NCBI RefSeq assembly: GCF_036320965.1
Contig: NC_092243.1
Location: 492,501-556,500 of the forward strand
Source of the DNA: Panulirus ornatus
Taxonomy: Eukaryota > Arthropoda > Malacostraca > Decapoda > Palinuridae
Direction of reading: 5' to 3'
Length of the DNA stretch: 64,000 nucleotides
Positions 12,203 through 64,000 of this stretch are shown here, one piece after another. A model generated the notes under the pieces. The model was not told the origin of the DNA. It saw only the letters and a program-made list of their open reading frames with translations, and did not search any database. Made by a program: the position numbers and the translations under genes. Each line of letters opens with the position of its first letter. Within the stretch, counting starts at the first letter, position 1.

Positions 12203-12506
12203 AAAATACACGCCTGCACACGATACTCACCTCCACACACGATACTCAACCCGGCACACGATACACACCCCCACACATGAGACTCACTCCCACGCACGAT
12301 ACTTACCCCGACACACGATACTTACCCTCACACACGATACTCACCCCCACACATGACACTCACTCCCACGCACGATACTTACCTCGACACACGATACTTA
12401 CCCTCACACACGATACTCACCCGCACACACGATACTCATACCCACACACGATACTCAGTCCTACATACAATACTCACCCCCATACACAGTCCTCAGGCCT
12501 ACACGT
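12203..12506. repeat. 19-bp minisatellite with four-unit higher-order repeat
   Basis: Sixteen consecutive units of exactly 19 bp (consensus near GATACTCACCCCCACACAC), phased from 12222 with one degenerate leading unit. Units 4-7 (12279-12354) recur almost exactly as units 8-11 (12355-12430), giving a 76-bp higher-order period. Because 19 is not a multiple of 3, the open frames (12076-12612 and others) cycle through all three phases. The long frame reflects a stop-free repeat and not a gene. Confidence 0.93.

Positions 12507-14760: not shown

Positions 14761-16797
<2,037 letters not shown>

Positions 16798-16860
<63 letters not shown>
16798..16860. repeat. (TA)n between two LINE breakpoints
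   Basis: About 63 bp of TA with a truncated LINE breakpoint on each side. On the left is the 5' end of a minus-strand copy, and on the right the 5' end of a plus-strand copy. Confidence 0.95.
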
Positions 16861-16862
<2 letters not shown>

Positions 16863-19297
16863 ACTGGAGGGATGTCTGATCATTATCTTGTGGAGGCTAA
16901 GGTGAAGATTTGTATGGGTTTTCAGAAAAAAAGAGTGAATGTTGGGGTGAAGAGGGTGGTGAGAGTAAGTGAGCTTGGGAAGGAGACTTGTGTGAGGAAG
17001 TACCAGGAGAGACTGAATACAGAATGGAAAAAGGTGAGAACAATGGAAGTAAGGGGAGTGGGGGAGGAATGGGATGTATTTAGGGAATCAGTGATGGATT
17101 GCGCAAAAGATGCTTGTGGCATGAGAAGAGTGGGAGGTGGGTTGATTAGAAAGGGTAGTGAGTGGTGGGATGAAGAAGTAAGAGTGTTAGTGAAAGAGAA
17201 GAGAGAGGCATTTGGACGATTTTTGCAGGGAAAAAATGCAGTTGAGTGGGAGACGTATAAAAGAAAGAGACAGGAGGTCAAGAGAAAGGTGCAAGAGGTG
17301 AAAAAGAGGGCAAATGAGAGTTGGGGTGAGAGAGTATCATTAAATTTTAGGGAGAATAAAAAGATGTTCTGGAAGGAGGTAAATAAAGTGCGTAAGACAA
17401 GGGAGCAAATGGGAACTTCAGTGAAGGGCGCAAATGGGGAGGTGATAACAAGTAGTGGTGATGTGAGAAGGAGATGGAGTGAGTATTTTGAAGGTTTGTT
17501 GAATGTGTTTGATGATAGAGTGGCAGATATAGGGTGTTTTGGTCGAGGTGGTGTGCAGGGTGAGAGGGTTAGGGAAAATGATTTGGTAAACAGAGAAGAG
17601 GTAGTAAAAGCTTTGCGGAAGATGAAAGCCGGCAAGGCAGCAGGTTTGGATGGTATTGCAGTGGAATTTATTAAAAAAGGGGGTGACTGTATTGTTGACT
17701 GGTTGGTAAGGTTATTTAATGTATGTATGACTCACGGTGAGGTGCCTGAGGATTGGCGGAATGCGTGCATAGTGCCATTGTACAAAGGCAAAGGGGATAA
17801 GAGTGAGTGCTCAAATTACAGAGGTATAAGTTTGATGAGTATTCCTGGTAAATTATATGGGAGGGTATTGATTGAGAAGGTGAAGGCATGTACAGAGCAT
17901 CAGATTGGGGAAGAGCAGTGTGGTTTCAGAAGTGGTAGAGGATGTGTGGATCAGGTGTTTGCTTTGAAGAATGTATGTGAGAAATACTTAGAAAAGCAAA
18001 TGGATTTGTATGTAGCATTTATGGATCTGGAGAAGGCATATGATAGAGTTGATAGAGATGCTCTGTGGAAGGTATTAAGAATATATGGTATGGGTGGCAA
18101 GTTGTTAGAAGCAGTGAAAAGTTTTTATCGAGGATGTAAGGCATGTGTACATGTAGGAAGAGAGGAAAGTGATTGGTTCTCAGTGAATGTAGGTTTGCGG
18201 CAGGGGTGTGTGATGTCTCCATGGTTGTTTAATTTGTTTATGGATGGGGTTGTTAGGGAGATGAATGCAAGAGTTTTGGAAAGAGGGGCAAGTATGAAGT
18301 CTGTTGGGGATGAGAGAGCTTGGGAAGTGAGTCAGTTGTTGTTCGCTGATGATACAGCGCTGGTGGCTGATTCATGTGAGAAACTGCAGAAGCTGGTGAC
18401 TGAGTTTGGTAAAGTGTGTGAAAGAAGAAAGTTAAGAGTAAATGTGAATAAGAGCAAGGTTATTAGGTACAGTAGGGTTGAGGGTCAAGTCAGTTGTGAG
18501 GTGAGTTTGAATGGAGAAAAACTGGAGGAAGTGAAGTGTTTTAGATATCTGGGAGTGGATCTGGCAGCGGATGGAACCATGGAAGCGGAAGTGGATCATA
18601 GGGTGGGGGAGGGGGCGAAAATTCTGGGAGCCTTGAAGAATGTGTGGAAGTCGAGAACATTATCTCGGAAAGCAAAAATGGGTATGTTTGAAGGAATAGT
18701 GGTTCCAACCATGTTGTATGGTTGCGAGGCGTGGGCTATGGATAGAGTTGTGCGCAGGAGGATGGATGTGCTGGAAATGAGATGTTTGAGGACAATGTGT
18801 GGTGTGATGTTGTTTGATCGAGTAAGTAATGTAAGGGTAAGAGAGATGTGTGGAAATAAAAAGAGCGTGGTTGAGAGAGCAGAAGAGGGTGTTTTGAAAT
18901 GGTTTGGGCACATGGAGAGAATGAGTGAGGAAAGATTGACCAAGAGGATATATGTGTCGGAGGTGGAGGGAACGAGGAGAAGAGGGAGACCAAATTGGAG
19001 GTGGAAAGATGGAGTGAAAAAGATTTTGTGTGATCGGGGCCTGAACATGCAGGAGGGTGAAAGGAGGGCAAGGAATAGAGTGAATTGGAGCGATGTGGTA
19101 TACCGGGGTTGACGTGCTGTCAGTGGATTGAATCGGGGCATGTGAAGCGTCTGGGGTAAACCATGGAAAGCTGTGTAGGTATGTATATTTGAGTGTGTGG
19201 ACGTATGTTTATACATGTGTATGGGGGTGGGTTGGGCCATTTCTTTCGTCTGTTTCCTTGCGCTACCTCGCAAACGCGGGAGACAGCGACAAAGCAA

Positions 19298-19315
<18 letters not shown>
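16861..19315 (+). mobile_element. LINE copy, subfamily B, 5'-truncated, intact RT
   Basis: Starts abruptly after (TA)n inside the endonuclease, a few codons before its SDH box. It continues through the complete RT, C-terminal domain, short 3'UTR (19113-19294), tail motif GCGCTACCTCGCAAACGC and an A20 tail, then (TA)n. The truncated 5' end and A-tail fit target-primed reverse transcription. No target-site duplication can be defined because both flanks are TA. Confidence 0.95.
16863..19112 (+). CDS. LINE reverse transcriptase ORF (endonuclease-truncated)
   Basis: About 749 uninterrupted LINE codons. A start codon further upstream (16431) lies in an antisense LINE fragment plus TA repeat, so the 893-residue open frame is a chimera. 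Order: end of the APE endonuclease (GGMSDHY, with catalytic His), an Arg/Lys-rich linker, then the RT with KAAGLDGIAVEFIKKG, NYRGISLMSIPGKLYG and QCGFRSGRG. Next come MDLEKAYDRVD (first catalytic Asp), GLRQGCVMSPWLFNLFMDG, FADD at 18342-18353 (catalytic Asp pair) and FRYLGVDL. The C-terminal WFGHM and GRPNWRWKDG blocks follow. Such proteins copy LINE RNA at nicked DNA. With most of the endonuclease missing, this copy is unlikely to transpose alone, though RT could be active. One visible change is CGVMLFD for CGVRWFD. RTE-like assignment is from the C-terminal pattern. Confidence 0.9.
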   Translation, partial: TGGMSDHYLVEAKVKICMGFQKKRVNVGVKRVVRVSELGKETCVRKYQERLNTEWKKVRTMEVRGVGEEWDVFRESVMDCAKDACGMRRVGGGLIRKGSEWWDEEVRVLVKEKREAFGRFLQGKNAVEWETYKRKRQEVKRKVQEVKKRANESWGERVSLNFRENKKMFWKEVNKVRKTREQMGTSVKGANGEVITSSGDVRRRWSEYFEGLLNVFDDRVADIGCFGRGGVQGERVRENDLVNREEVVKALRKMKAGKAAGLDGIAVEFIKKGGDCIVDWLVRLFNVCMTHGEVPEDWRNACIVPLYKGKGDKSECSNYRGISLMSIPGKLYGRVLIEKVKACTEHQIGEEQCGFRSGRGCVDQVFALKNVCEKYLEKQMDLYVAFMDLEKAYDRVDRDALWKVLRIYGMGGKLLEAVKSFYRGCKACVHVGREESDWFSVNVGLRQGCVMSPWLFNLFMDGVVREMNARVLERGASMKSVGDERAWEVSQLLFADDTALVADSCEKLQKLVTEFGKVCERRKLRVNVNKSKVIRYSRVEGQVSCEVSLNGEKLEEVKCFRYLGVDLAADGTMEAEVDHRVGEGAKILGALKNVWKSRTLSRKAKMGMFEGIVVPTMLYGCEAWAMDRVVRRRMDVLEMRCLRTMCGVMLFDRVSNVRVREMCGNKKSVVERAEEGVLKWFGHMERMSEERLTKRIYVSEVEGTRRRGRPNWRWKDGVKKILCDRGLNMQEGERRARNRVNWSDVVYRG

Positions 19316-19369
<54 letters not shown>
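19316..19369. repeat. (TA)n microsatellite
   Basis: About 54 bp of TA linking the LINE A-tail to the head of the next short element. Confidence 0.95.
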
Positions 19370-19372
<3 letters not shown>

Positions 19373-28642: not shown

Positions 28643-28764
28643 ACATCTACTACTGCTACTACTACTGCTACTACTACTGCTACTACTACTACTGCTACTA
28701 CTACTGCTACTACTACTACTGCTACTACTACTGCTACTACTACTGCTTCTACTACTACTACTAT

Positions 28765-28852
<88 letters not shown>

Positions 28853-28890
28853 GCTGCTACTACTACTACTATTACTACTACTGCTACTAT

Positions 28891-28930
<40 letters not shown>

Positions 28931-29016
28931 GCTACTACTACTATTACTGCTACTACTATTACTACTACTACTACTACTGCTACTACTATTACTGCCGCTA
29001 CTACTACTACTACTAC
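28643..29016. repeat. (CTA/CTG)n trinucleotide array
   Basis: About 370 bp of CTA triplets with regularly spaced CTG variants, often every 9-15 bp, plus rarer ATT and CCG variants. In other frames it reads poly-Leu, poly-Thr or poly-Ser, which accounts for the 146-278-codon open frames here. Confidence 0.96.
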
Positions 29017-30571: not shown

Positions 30572-35782
<5,211 letters not shown>

Positions 35783-49354: not shown

Positions 49355-51184
49355 GCCAGACGCTGACAATCCCTAAAGTCTGGATCATTATACCTGTAAA
49401 AGTTGATCTCTGTAACATCATGCCTGTATAAGTACATCCTGTATCATCATGCCTGTCCAATATGATATCACAGTATCAGTGACTCACAGTGACACAGTAC
49501 GTCAGGTGGGAGTACTAGTGGTGTGACCTCATACAGGATGTGGGTCACTGAAAATTACTGTTCGTTAAGCAGGGGAATTTCTCCTTTCCTCTCCTCGTAG
49601 ATCTGCTCCCAGCACAGCATGATAGGATGTTGTCAGATCTACTGATGAGAAACGGGAAGGTACGAGGTCAACATATTTTGGTGATAGCATATTTCGATGT
49701 AATGTTGATTTTATACTGACTGATGACATGTTATACCATATTTCATTGATCTGTATGAATCTGTAAATCTTTAGCAAACATGAGCTTCGTGATACAACAA
49801 GGGAGCACGGTAGTAATGGTAACACAGGTAGGAGCTACGAATTCAAATATTTTTGACGCGTTTCATTTGGTATCGTACCTTCATTAATTGAATGAATCAT
49901 ATTCGTAATGCAGTTAAATTAGTGTAGCAAACACTGACGAACTTAGGAAAATTTACCAGATTTTTATTTACACAACACTTTTACTTTTCGTCCAAAAAGT
50001 CTAATTTCCGGTGTTACAAAGAAAAGTTATTCACATAAGTGTTTGACGTAATTTTAAATGTGATTTCTCAGTGATTATAACAACTAGCCTCCCACGTGTA
50101 TGCAGACGGGACATGTTTCATTAGTGAAAATAACTGTCACATTATCTAAAGACGCACCGGTAGGTTTGCTCCCGTGCTCGTAGGTTTGAAAATGATTAGA
50201 ATTGTGCAAGAGTATGCGAGAGTGCATTTTAATTGTAGCTTATTTACTGTCAAGGCATCACGTTTATTATAGGAGTATCAAGTTCCATGTAGGTACGTAG
50301 TGCTCAATATAGAGGTTTTACGGGAATATCAGATTCATATCTGGAAAACTTGCAACATATTCTCTATAGCCCATATCGTCCTAGCAATGAAGGTACCATC
50401 GTCACTGTAAAAGCACTGAGTTACCTGTAACTATGCTTTGTTTTCTAGGTTCACATACAGTGGCCTAAGTTTGCTGCGACTGTATTATCGTCAAAATCTG
50501 TGATAAAAGACAAGGATCGTTAAGCACAAGCGAAATGTTAATGTCAAAAGCAGTTTAACCTCTCGAACACGTCAGTACGATCCTTGAACTCAACATTAAG
50601 GTCCTTCGGTTTGATGACCTAGCCTTTGGCTTGATGTATAAGTGTCAAGTCAACAGTTAGGCCATCATAACCCAGAATCATATTGAAGTGGTCAAGGGAT
50701 ATACCTTTGTGCTTAAGGATCGTAACGTCGTGATCAAGGGGAACATTAACCGAGAGAACAGAATACATATACTCTAGTCTTCGGTGCTGCCAGGTTTTCG
50801 AACATACGTCCATGTTAGTACCTCGTAAGAAGACCAATATCCTTTCATAGAGTGAGCCTGGCATACCCTTAATGATACCTGTCTGGTGCAACTTGGGCCA
50901 TCTGTTTACATTGAAATGTACTTCCAACACAAGAAAAGTTATGAATATTACATATTTGCAGTTCACATGATCTGTAGTTTTTGTGAGAGCCAGAGAAGAC
51001 CTGGTGAGAAGTGAATTACATTAAGATGACTTCGTGACAATGCGATGTAAAAGTTAAACAGATTCATGAAGCTTTCCTTAAACGTTATGAAATATGCATA
51101 GATATATGTAGATATACAAACATGAAATGTAGATGCACAAACGCATATATACGCACACATAAACAAACATAAACACAAACATCT
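49355..51184. other. No recognisable gene
   Basis: A loose repeat of about 31 bp (ATCATGCCTGTA words) at 49380-49460. A 115-codon minus frame (50966-50619) has no motif and is not claimed as a gene. Confidence 0.4.
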
Positions 51185-51194
51185 ATACCGGCCT

Positions 51195-51329
51195 CACGCA
51201 ACGCCGATACACCCACTTCCGGCTTCACGCACGCCCACACATATACACCCGGCCTCACCCACGCCCATACATTACACCTGTCCTCACCCACGCCCACACA
51301 GCTACACCCAGCCTCACCACGCTCACAAA
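51195..51329. repeat. 30-bp minisatellite, left part
   Basis: Units near CACGCCCACACATATACACC-CGGCCTCACC (30 bp). The array is interrupted at 51330 by the composite transposon and resumes in phase at 54647. Confidence 0.85.
51322..51329. other. Target-site duplication, left copy (CTCACAAA)
   Basis: The 8 bp immediately before the 5' terminal inverted repeat at 51330 are identical to 54639-54646. An 8-bp duplication is the hAT hallmark, and T at position 2 and A at position 7 fit the usual hAT target preference. Confidence 0.88.
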
Positions 51330-51664
51330 CAGTGGCGTATCTAGGGTATGGCAGGTAGGGCAGGTGCCCTGGGCGCCACTTGAAGAGGTTTAGTTATGTG
51401 AGATAAAAAAGAAACTCGCCTACTTTTCAACTATAGTAATATTGTGCTACTATCAGTTGCATTACCGCTTCTACGGCACAATTTTGATGAAATAAGTCCT
51501 TAACTCTGTCTTTAAGATTTCATATAAATTCAAGTTTGGCCTAACTCTTCAACAGCTTATAATTACACTGGATATATTTTTATATACATCCACTGTATAT
51601 ACATTTTTAATCAAGCTTTAATCAGTGCTTGCCATAGGCGCTATTTACCCTAGATACGCCCCTG
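51330..51664. mobile_element. hAT-type MITE, left copy
   Basis: 335 bp. Termini CAGTGGCGTATCTAGGGTA and, reversed, CAGGGGCGTATCTAGGGTA (18 of 19 matching). Subterminal CCCTGGGCGCC follows the 5' end. Shares with the right copy both termini and a core of about 110 bp (ACTCGCCTACTTTTCAACTA...). The two copies carry different internal deletions. Confidence 0.88.
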
Positions 51665-52845
51665 AATAGTTAGGGGCATTTTTTTTTAGCTCAAAATACT
51701 TTTTGTTTCAAAACTGAAAGATAAGATATTCAACCACTTCTATTCTTGAAATGCTAATGGAAAATATATCATAATGCTCGCAATTACCGATACATACTCA
51801 ATGAATACGATGCAATGGAGCAGAAACATTTTAGGATTGACTTCATTTAACAGCTTAATTAGTGTCATTAAGAGGACTAAACGTTATTCTAAGACCAAAT
51901 TTGTGTTCAGCATGAAAAATACTTCTTACAATGAGTTTTTAAAGGAAACATATTTTCTAAGAAAAATACCAAAAATTGAAGGTAATAGTTCAGGGTATTT
52001 TTTTTACTCCAAAAACTTTTTGTTGCAAAATTGAAAGATATGTCTTTCAAACACTTCTATACTTGAAATAATCATGGAAAATATGTCATAATGCTCTCAG
52101 TTACTGATACATATCTGGTAAATAAGATGCAAAGAATAACGAGATATTTTAAAAATAGTTTTATTTAACACCTTGATTGAGTGTAATTAAGACGACTAAA
52201 CGATATTCTAACACCGTATTTGTTTTCAACATGAAAAATACTTCTTATGAAAAGTTTTTAAAGGAAATCTATTTTTCTGAAAAAAATAAAAAGAATTAAA
52301 GGTAATAGTTCAAGGTATTTTTTAGCCCAAAAAGCATGTTGTTTCAGAATCAAAACAAGATATTCAGACTCTTCTACACTTAAAATAATCATGGAAAATA
52401 TATCACAATGCTCTCATTTACTGATACATACTCAGTAAATACGATGCAAGGGAACAAAAAATATCTTTAGATTGACTTCATTTAACAGCTTAGTTAAATA
52501 TGGAAACACCTAACCATCATTCTAACACACGATTTGTATTCAGCATGAAAAATACTTCTTATAGTTAGTTGTTAAAGGAAATCTATTTTTCTGAGAAAGA
52601 TACCAAAAATTGCAGGTAATAGTTCAGGCTATTTTTTAGCTCAAAAAACTTTGCTTCAAAATTGAAAGATAAGGTATTCAAACACTTCTTACTTGAAATA
52701 ATCATGGGAAATGGTTCAGGGTATTTTTCAGCCCAACAACCTTTTTGATTCAAAATTGAAATGTGAGATATCCAAACACTTCTATACTTGAAATAATCAT
52801 GGAAAATATATCATAATGCTCTTATTTACCAATAACTGATTGATT
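51665..52845. repeat. ~316-bp satellite monomers, left block
   Basis: The landmark CACTTCTATACTTGAAATAA (or variants) recurs at about 51734, 52050, 52366, 52680 and 52772. The first four are spaced about 316 bp apart. Each monomer also has a GATGCAA-GGAACA segment, a GACTTCATTTAACAGCTTAA segment and an AAATACTTCTTA segment. The last unit is truncated to about 91 bp. Copies differ by point changes and small indels. Confidence 0.87.
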
Positions 52846-52849
52846 GGTT

Positions 52850-53690
52850 AGTTATTGACCACAGAATCATATAAGTCACAACTTTCTAAAAAATACCGAA
52901 ACCAAAAGTAAACCATCATCACCATAACATAAAACGTTAATTATGGTCCAAATGAAAAATACTTATCATATAATGACTTAAACATAAGACACCCAATACA
53001 ATACATAAGAGAAACATAGTAATTGGCATATTCTAACACAATTAGGCATATAGGTTCAAAATTTCATGAATAGCATGACATACAATTTTATGATCCATCC
53101 TATTTACAAAGAAGCCTTGCATGGTAGTAATACCGAACTGCTGTCTTAGCTGGGTAGACGTTGCTCACTGTTTTATAACATGTTTCTCGGTTTGAATATT
53201 TCCACACATACAAAGCCGCTCCTCCAATGGTAACCTGCCCCTCCCTCGCCTGTTCCAACGCCCTTCCTCCACAGCGCGGGAGTGAGCGCTTAAACGCAGC
53301 CTAGACCATGACATTCGCTCTGTCTCTCTTCCATCTGTCTTCAATTTATATATGTCAAGTGTTACAAGACTTGGATTTAGGGAACAATAAAGTTGAGTTC
53401 TGTTTGATGATGAGTTTAACGATTTTTGCTTCAAATCCGTCAGAGCAATGTGTACATCATCTACCTCGTTTTCCAGTAAGTCATGGATATAGCGAGACGT
53501 ATTGTGATTATAAGTAAGTATTGTACTGATCGAATGAGCTAAAGGGTCATCTTCCATTGAGCGTCTCTCCCTCCACTTGATCGAGAAAAATTTACGTTGT
53601 CTGCTTAAAATAAGTGCACGTAGAGTAGGGTATCCTAACTCCAATAAACTCAGATCATTACATGTTGTCCTTCTCACCCCAACAACTGCT
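52850..53690 (-). mobile_element. Degenerate LINE, C-terminal zinc-knuckle-like region, inside the satellite
   Basis: On the minus strand an open frame of 170 codons (53677-53165) ends in a pattern R-M-S-W-S-R-L-R-L-S-A-H-S, EEGRWNRRGRGRLPLEERLC, then C-G-N-I-Q-T-E-K-H-V-I. The motif RLRLSxH...GRWxR...RxCxCGxxQTExHVI is typical of the C-terminal tail of jockey/CR1-type LINE polyproteins and their zinc-knuckle-like end. Further 3', stop-broken sequence to about 52850 continues as its 3' region. No RT core. It splits the satellite block, so it was probably in the array before the composite moved. Confidence 0.65.
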
Positions 53691-54356
53691 TAATGCAGTA
53701 CACAGTAAATACGATGCAAAGGAACAGAAATATCTAAAAATTGACTTCATTTAACAGCTTAATTAATTGTCATTAAGCGGACTAAACGTTATTTTAACAT
53801 CAGATTTATATTCAGCAAGAAAAAGATACTGCATAATCGAAGGTTATGATAATTCAAAAGATCAGAAAATATTTAAAATTGAATTCATGAACAGCTTAAT
53901 TGAATGTCATAAAGACGACTAAATGATATTTTAACACCAGATTTGTATTCAGCATAAAGAATACTTCTTATATTTAGTTATTAAAGGAAACCTATTTTCC
54001 TGAGAAAAATGCCAAAGATTGCAGGTAATGAATACTTCAGGGCACCTTTTGGCTACAGAAACTTTTTGTTTCAAAATTGAAAGATAAGATACTCAAAGAC
54101 TTCTATACTTGAAATAGTCATGGAAGATATATGATAATGCTCTCAGTCACCGATGCATACACAGTAAATGCGATGCAAAGGAACAGGTATATTTTAAAAC
54201 TGACTTCATTTAACAGCTTAATTGAATGTCATGAAGACGACTGAACGATATTTTAACAGCATACTTGTATTCAGTATGAGAAATACTTCTTATATTGAGT
54301 TTTTAAAGGAAATCTTATTTTCTGAAGAAAATACCAAAAATTGAAGGTAACAGTTA
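53691..54356. repeat. ~316-bp satellite monomers, right block
   Basis: Resumes after the LINE relic with the same landmarks (ACAGTAAATACGATGCAAAG at about 53701 and about 54170; CTTCTATACTTGAAATAG at about 54100). Internal deletions shorten some units. It ends in GGTAACAGTTA, the exact monomer position that also starts the left block. Confidence 0.83.
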
Positions 54357-54638
54357 CAGCGGCGTATCTAGGGTATGGTAGGTTAGACAGGTGCTCTGGG
54401 CGCCACTTGAAGAGGAGCGCTGCTCAACAGGTTTGTTTTTTGACATATGCTACCCGATTGACATTCTTAACGGTTTGATTTTGTAAGATAAAAAAGAAAC
54501 TCGCCTACTTTTCAACTACAGGAATATTTTGCTACCATCAGTTGCATTACCGCCTCTACATTACAATTTTGATGAAATAAGTCAGGGGCGAAATTTCAAT
54601 GCTTGCCATAGGCACTATTTCCCCTAGATACGCCTCTG
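54357..54638. mobile_element. hAT-type MITE, right copy
   Basis: 282 bp, same orientation as the left copy. Termini CAGCGGCGTATCTAGGGTA and, reversed, CAGAGGCGTATCTAGGGG. It retains a segment of about 70 bp (GAGCGCTGCTCAACAGG...) deleted from the left copy, and lacks about 100 bp present there. Both are therefore independent internal-deletion derivatives of a longer element. Confidence 0.87.
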
Positions 54639-54712
54639 CTCACAAAGCTTCACCCGGCCTCACCTACGCCCTCACATCTACACCCGAGCTTACCCACGCC
54701 CACATGGTCTCC
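54639..54712. repeat. Target-site duplication, right copy, and 30-bp minisatellite, right part
   Basis: CTCACAAA at 54639-54646, then GCTTCACCCGGCCTCACC and two further minisatellite units. Joining 51329 to 54647 gives one uninterrupted 30-bp unit. Confidence 0.87.

Positions 54713-59236: not shown

Positions 59237-59240
<4 letters not shown>
58935..59240. repeat. Inverted repeat of Penelope-like 3'UTR, ~95-bp arms
   Basis: Arms 58970-59065 and 59146-59240 are reverse complements with only a few mismatches, separated by 80 bp. The left half (58935-59138, minus sense) continues to match the Penelope-like 3'UTR at 27274-27428 through the loop (CAGTCAGTTGATATA, AAGAGAC, GTAAACA words). Each outer end meets (TA)n. 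The pair is two 3' ends arranged tail-outwards. Confidence 0.88.

Positions 59241-59325
<85 letters not shown>
59241..59325. repeat. (TA)n between Penelope-like end and LINE
   Basis: About 85 bp of TA. Left neighbour is the Penelope-like arm, and right neighbour is the truncated LINE 5' end. Confidence 0.95.

Positions 59326-64000
<4,675 letters not shown>

Follow-up and report, generated by a model that had tools for sequence, protein, structure and literature searches.

Results

The window analysed here is a 64,000-nucleotide stretch of the genome of the spiny lobster Panulirus ornatus (assembly GCF_036320965.1, contig NC_092243.1, positions 492,501 to 556,500), and our subject is a 3309-bp block at 51330-54638 of that stretch, in which satellite DNA lies between two hAT-type miniature inverted-repeat transposable elements (MITEs) inside a 30-bp minisatellite (Table 1). 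As a first-pass annotation of the same DNA had claimed, identical 8-bp repeats surround the block: the two copies of CTCACAAA, at 51322-51329 and 54639-54646, agree at 8/8 positions and lie directly outside the inverted ends. The annotation had placed the block and its repeats correctly but had carried the element to 54646, where the right duplication finishes; the last base of the element itself is 54638. The hAT-like inverted termini reported for both ends were also found, CAGTGGCGTATCTAGGG and the reverse-complemented CAGAGGCGTATCTAGGG being alike at 16/17 positions. These terminal inverted repeats are short and begin CAG, a form that we take to be hAT-like, and the element end sequence is CAGNGGCGTATCTAGGG. 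The weight of CTCACAAA comes from its exact placement at both inverted ends and not from rarity, since with 6 occurrences in the window against 3.67 expected the octamer is by itself not rare.

A complete MITE stands at each end, as had been stated (335 and 282 bp); the two differ at 22 of 214 ungapped positions (16 transitions and 6 transversions), and their internal lengths differ strongly. The claim of a clean insertion with a readable empty site was borne out as well: the minisatellite flanks together with one copy of CTCACAAA restored the 30-bp register with no break at the joint, and the joined flanks gave a local score of 268, compared to 188 and 84 for each flank alone. The arrangement is that of a macrotransposon, with a complete element at each end, outer flanks that carry the duplicated CTCACAAA, and inner flanks (AATAGTTA on the left and AACAGTTA on the right) that differ from the outer ones. 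Overall, we regard the block as very probably a single copy of a composite, non-autonomous hAT element that landed in the 30-bp minisatellite.

The interior had been described as satellite monomers between the MITEs, which holds for monomers of 314-320 bp but not for 864 bp (52835-53698) of non-satellite DNA. The satellite has a period of 317 by Tandem Repeats Finder (TRF) and a nominal monomer of ~319 bp, and the insert interrupts it between positions 126 and 129. An open stretch of 174 aa on the minus strand of the insert matched 148 proteins at E<=0.001, mostly unnamed, the best at 95% identity; relatives with crustacean names came from Meganyctiphanes norvegica (50% identical) and Portunus trituberculatus (47%). 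Neither this stretch nor four other open stretches matched Pfam, and we take the insert, without a family match, to be probably the tail of a retrotransposon without long terminal repeats (non-LTR). A single long hAT element with a satellite grown from its own interior was rejected, since self-comparison showed no similarity between MITE and satellite.

Table 1. Parts of the composite element and of the minisatellite that it splits, in window coordinates.
Feature	Position	Strand	Remarks
Minisatellite, 30-bp, left part of split target	51170..51329	+	TRF row 51219-51327, period 29; register alignment
Left outer target-site duplication CTCACAAA	51322..51329	+	
Left hAT-type MITE, 335 bp, inverted ends CAGTGGCGTATCTAGGG / CCCTAGATACGCCCCTG	51330..51664	+	Similar copies elsewhere in genome
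Inner copy of putative ancestral MITE target site AATAGTTA, satellite positions 1-8	51665..51672	+	
Satellite: 3 complete monomers, then a partial one (positions 1-99), then one cut at 126	51665..52834	+	
864-bp insert within satellite; open stretch of 174 aa at 53165-53689	52835..53698	-	
Satellite, complete and partial monomers, running to position 8	53699..54356	+	
Inner copy of putative ancestral MITE target site AACAGTTA, same satellite phase as left one	54349..54356	+	
Right hAT-type MITE, 282 bp, same orientation as left MITE	54357..54638	+	
Right outer target-site duplication CTCACAAA	54639..54646	+	
Minisatellite, 30-bp, right part of split target	54647..54704	+	

We examined the junctions between MITE and satellite. 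In the window the satellite begins at position 1 at its left inner edge and finishes at position 8 at its right inner edge, and the junction-type monomer sequence is AGTTAGGGG. The eighth base of the inner site is A at both junctions, while the window's other monomers at this motif (51984, 52304, 52618, and 52710) have C. The same 8-bp site in the same phase on both inner sides is the pattern left by one MITE insertion with its 8-bp duplication, and it suggests that the two MITEs go back to one insertion into one satellite monomer that was duplicated later. In this respect the annotation's picture of two MITEs in a satellite array is corrected. Across the genome, inspection by eye (window included) found exactly AATAGTTA within two bases after 13 of 21 left-position MITE rows, a variant of it after 7, and other satellite after 1 (the inverted MITE of locus L029); among 11 right-position rows, the exact site preceded 5 and a variant 4, and 2 were unreadable. 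That a single 8-bp site forms the inner flank of each MITE is new and goes beyond the first-pass annotation.

The genome search covered one assembly (2,650,149,939 bases in 1348 contigs). The MITE query gave 935 candidate places, of which 40 were scored; the satellite monomer query gave 2919 (40 scored) and an internal monomer query 2798 (37 scored). Satellite monomers stand head to tail in many arrays, long ones included, and matches extend over about 15 kb at C58:7189595-7204801; further long arrays lie at C8:3.58 and 5.12 Mb. The best 20 MITE loci outside the window, in stretches of 8-9 kb, comprised 4 with a MITE or MITE remnant at each end of the satellite (L056, L063, L065, and, after extension, L070), 7 with a MITE at one end, and 9 free of satellite. 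Other insertions with the same outer ends, which the annotation had named as the thing to look for, exist: ten further two-ended composites were found, so that eleven were seen with the window, ranging in size from 1.3 to 6.0 kb.

Nine of the eleven could be tested for an outer duplication, which was unreadable in L045 (within (CT)n) and in L035+L077 (right MITE truncated). The duplication was perfect (8/8) in five, each with its own octamer: the window (CTCACAAA), L029/L056 (GTGTCAGG), L040+L044 (ACCTCATA), L063 (AGGGTAAT), and L065 (TTAACAAG). It matched at 7/8 in L052 and L070+L073, which brings the composites with at least 7/8 to 7 of 11, two of the 11 being unreadable. As a control, the left flank of one testable composite was compared with the right flank of another; the best match was 5/8, and none of 72 pairings reached 6/8. 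The left MITE has shrunk to 38 bp in L063 and to 36 bp in L052. The L070+L073 unit (6018 bp) interrupts a relative of a long interspersed nuclear element (LINE), its two flanks falling at almost neighbouring LINE positions: the left flank stops at 17605 of a LINE copy in the window and the right flank resumes at about 17616 (69-72% identity), the latter start being extrapolated from a match that begins 78 bases in. Solo MITEs also carry 8-bp duplications, such as L062 and L071 (both 8/8). In L029/L056 (C21:2.81 Mb) the second MITE is inverted and both outer ends are 5' ends, yet the duplication is perfect; its MITEs, 90.4% alike, group together in the MITE tree described below.

Similarity among the satellite monomers was analysed in 138 monomers from 27 arrays. 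Mean likeness between arrays was 82.2%, and within most arrays it was about equal, which argues that the satellite blocks were already diverged on arrival. Monomers beside the left MITE were more alike (85.7% over 15 arrays) than one random monomer per array (82.0%), a value that none of 2000 draws reached. Monomer order was also shared between loci: monomers 1-5 of L040+L044 best matched monomers 1, 2, 3, 8, and 9 of L049+L074, and monomers 1-5 of L041 best matched monomers 5-9 of the same composite. With first and last monomers left out and three locally homogenised arrays dropped, the summed order score over 14 arrays was 401.0 compared to a permuted mean of 365.5 (SD 8.3; 0/1000 as high), and with the three arrays retained it was 548.6 compared to 514.1 (1/1000 as high). 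The window array, which is rearranged and interrupted, clearly matched the shared order for its first two monomers only. Since the left-MITE monomers and the monomer order are common to different loci, the data point to the copying of a pre-formed unit. The window block therefore belongs to a dispersed family whose MITE-satellite junctions are fixed and whose monomer order is shared, and is not a one-off event. The macrotransposon proposal stands in that a hAT-type composite, bounded as one insertion by the outermost ends of its MITEs, carried satellite to a new place; it does not stand as a single event.

Two arrays were locally homogenised and a third partly. In L059+L075 (C20:8.98 Mb) 12 monomers at steps of about 305 bp lie beside the right-hand MITE and are 97.1% alike; the two-ended 6.0-kb L070+L073 (C17:6.70 Mb) holds 12 monomers that are 92.7% alike within the array; and L037+L078 is partly homogenised, with a mean of 86.7% and a best pair of 98.1%. 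On their sequence, such arrays fit amplification in place after landing.

A tree of the MITEs was built from 33 of 42 rows, shorter or interrupted rows being dropped. The tree was star-like, with no starred branch and a median end branch of 0.058, and left, right, and solo MITEs were mixed. Separate left and right MITE lineages were not seen, the state 'left' requiring 12 changes compared to 11.2 in shuffles. The paired MITEs within a composite were 83.4-88.0% alike in seven composites, compared to a mean of 87.0% across loci, the inverted L029 pair being the exception. The tree and the pair similarities would match a single burst that spread solo and composite elements together.

Other repeats in the window were also recorded. 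Three long copies of one non-LTR retrotransposon (16794-19370, 32084-35187, and 59239-62389) are 95-98% alike over 2.5-3.1 kb and include one open stretch, 984 aa long, that bears a reverse-transcriptase domain; each copy stands between long AT-repeat runs, as if it inserted into AT microsatellites. A reverse-transcriptase open reading frame of the window matches a P. ornatus protein at 95% identity across 53% of the query. The window is rich in simple repeats, among them, at 12217-12487 and 28647-29016, a 19-bp minisatellite and a long CTA-type trinucleotide array. Screening of the window found no tRNA and no Rfam match at gathering scores.

Discussion

The following course of events would account for the family. 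A single insertion at AATAGTTA would have placed a MITE of about 400 bp in one monomer of a 319-bp satellite that was old and already diverged. A segment of several (perhaps nine) monomers may then have been duplicated and the MITE with it, which left a direct MITE copy at each border. A hAT transposase acting in trans would have treated the whole as one transposon, using the left MITE by its 5' end and the right MITE by its 3' end, and the MITE-satellite-MITE unit would have moved to many loci, each copy by transposition rather than recombination and each time with an 8-bp duplication, in the same burst as the solo MITEs. Later, monomers may have been lost, rearranged, or re-amplified in place, some copies may have been left without one of their MITEs, and the window copy would be a unit that landed in the 30-bp minisatellite.

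The leading alternative is homologous recombination, in which a solo MITE with its own 8-bp duplication exchanges with a satellite circle or array unit bearing one MITE and leaves a MITE-satellite-MITE unit inside the old duplication. It predicts identical outer and inner duplications, and both the satellite-free MITE loci (9/20) and the mixing of left, right, and solo MITEs in the tree would suit it; since a solo MITE and a satellite circle would yield the same duplications, we keep it as a rival. However, it requires ectopic exchange at each locus, and MITEs from one composite resemble each other no more than those from separate loci do, although a star-like burst predicts the same. The composites also lie far under the reach of hAT transposition, which extends up to 100 kb for the Ac/Ds macrotransposon according to passages of PMC3260210. 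Weighing these points, we consider recombination an unlikely source of the family. Still less can be said for the view that two MITEs lay by chance in a local satellite array and acted once to produce only the window insertion: the window anatomy taken alone would allow it, but the recurrent fixed junctions, the ten further composites, most of them with duplications of their own, and the monomer order shared between loci contradict it, and we judge it very improbable.

The remaining two explanations hardly deserve credence. One holds that the arrays never moved and that a preferred satellite site received MITEs again and again in independent insertions, which target preferences of the kind we assume hAT elements can show would favour. 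However, satellite lay on both sides in 0 of 42 MITE rows, one of which merges both MITEs of L045; on their outer sides the MITEs adjoin unrelated DNA of single loci, with duplications, and the A common to the junctions at the eighth base points to one insertion. Independent insertion into an array was rejected on the shared inner site and the 42 rows. Nor did the rows of this sample show a donor array with MITEs inside continuous satellite, for which the annotation had proposed a search. The other holds that the block is an assembly artefact or chimera. A repeat-rich long-read assembly could contain errors, but none was seen: the block lies inside a contig, the window has no N, and equivalent units with different duplications stand on other contigs.

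Several observations weigh against a composite that was transposed and copied as a unit. Many arrays have a MITE at a single end (the 7 of 20 loci above), and at 11 arrays first taken as one-ended (L035 was later found to be two-ended) no duplication was seen, since at the opposite edge the best 8-mers were 2-3 mismatches from the MITE-side flank. Among the two-ended composites, the outer duplication of L049+L074 matched at just 6/8, and L042+L079 had no matching one. Monomers beside the right MITE gave a weaker signal than those on the left (83.9% compared to 82.5% over 13 arrays, with 84 of 2000 draws as high). Order tests on single pairs were weak, 13 of 78 reaching p<=0.05 and 2 p<=0.01; in the full set the window takes part in 15 pairs, among which L040+L044 alone gave a significant result (p 0.044), and the window's last monomer had no clear match to the usual last monomer. 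To these must be added the edges of the long arrays: ten stretches from five arrays were inspected, six of them reached the array end, and none of the six carried a MITE. Of these long arrays it can be said, since their six readable edges are without a MITE, that they may be the old source rather than the offspring. The right edge of L046, which ends at AATAGTTA, and the left edge of L050, at junction-type sequence, are both without a MITE and unexplained, and belong on the same side.

The long-array edges of L082 and L084 stand at satellite positions 319 and 1, also without a MITE, and all four of these edges lie at or within about two bases of the usual MITE-joining phase. Excision of one MITE at the L046 and L050 edges is possible; inspection of the two recognised no excision footprint. 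Precise loss of a right MITE was considered for the edge of L038 and rejected, as what follows the edge is a LINE that shares 97-98% identity with copies in the window; this junction explains the edge, which was removed from the unexplained ones. In L034 a palindromic stretch (CCATTTGGTAAACA...TGTTTACCAAATGG) just right of 2984 lies directly at the end of the satellite array and is perhaps another small transposon.

It had been suggested that such transposition seeds satellite arrays. The locally homogenised arrays speak for this indirectly, but the six bare edges do not. The full scenario, in which a hAT composite captured a diverged satellite block once, became a family, and founded new arrays that were re-amplified after landing, the long MITE-free arrays being descendants that shed their ends, is thus put forward tentatively, and we would sooner doubt it than rely on it.

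How satellites arrive at new places is an old question, and the usual answers are circles, Helitrons, and retrotransposons. Here the vehicle is readable: a cut-and-paste hAT composite with recognisable ends and 8-bp duplications, whose cargo order can be traced between loci. The seeding of a satellite array by a transposon becomes testable locus by locus in a published genome, by empty sites and local amplification, and the family would be a natural animal hAT macrotransposon turned multicopy. Overall, it seems that satellite DNA has been spreading through the spiny-lobster genome by way of a cut-and-paste transposon. Among viral contigs, no stretch matched a 22-base end pattern; 24 stretches matched a 17-base pattern, taken as chance since the partner end was in none of the pieces inspected. 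In the literature covered, subscription journals being mostly outside it, we found no account of satellite DNA transported as a block by a pair of hAT MITEs, or of such a unit, with complete MITEs and a fixed block, as a multicopy family in animals.

Among known systems, satellite-like arrays form the centre of the non-autonomous Cg_HINE Helentrons of Crassostrea gigas, which occur genome-wide with element-specific flanks according to passages of PMC7492417. In contrast to the lobster elements, which are flanked by 8-bp duplications, have hAT-like inverted termini, and carry an entire MITE on either side of the satellite, Helentrons are described there as without duplications (PMC7492417), and a Helentron or Helitron type, defined by the lack of target-site duplication, was rejected for the lobster because such duplications are present. 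In the Xstir and miDNA4 MITEs of Xenopus, as outlined in portions of two reviews (PMC12628747, PMC9659126), a MITE and a tandem array are likewise mobile together; there, however, the repeats lie inside one MITE or derive from it, while the lobster satellite showed no relation to the MITE in the self-comparison and has a complete MITE on either side. The gadMor-hAT-1784/8043 MITEs of Atlantic cod are also hAT-derived and associated with tandem arrays (PMC12368964, in part), but their tandem units belong to the MITE's own inverted repeats, at inversion breakpoints, unlike the lobster satellite. The proposed use of outer ends is that of the Ac/Ds macrotransposons and composite insertions of maize (hAT), in which the outer ends of two linked elements are used and the intervening DNA is carried (passages of PMC9910405 and PMC3260210). 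As in the lobster family, two linked elements, their outer ends, an 8-bp duplication or footprint, and cargo DNA come together; the passages on Ac/Ds concern recent events with enhancers or nested retrotransposons as cargo, whereas the lobster has a many-copy animal family with a fixed satellite block.

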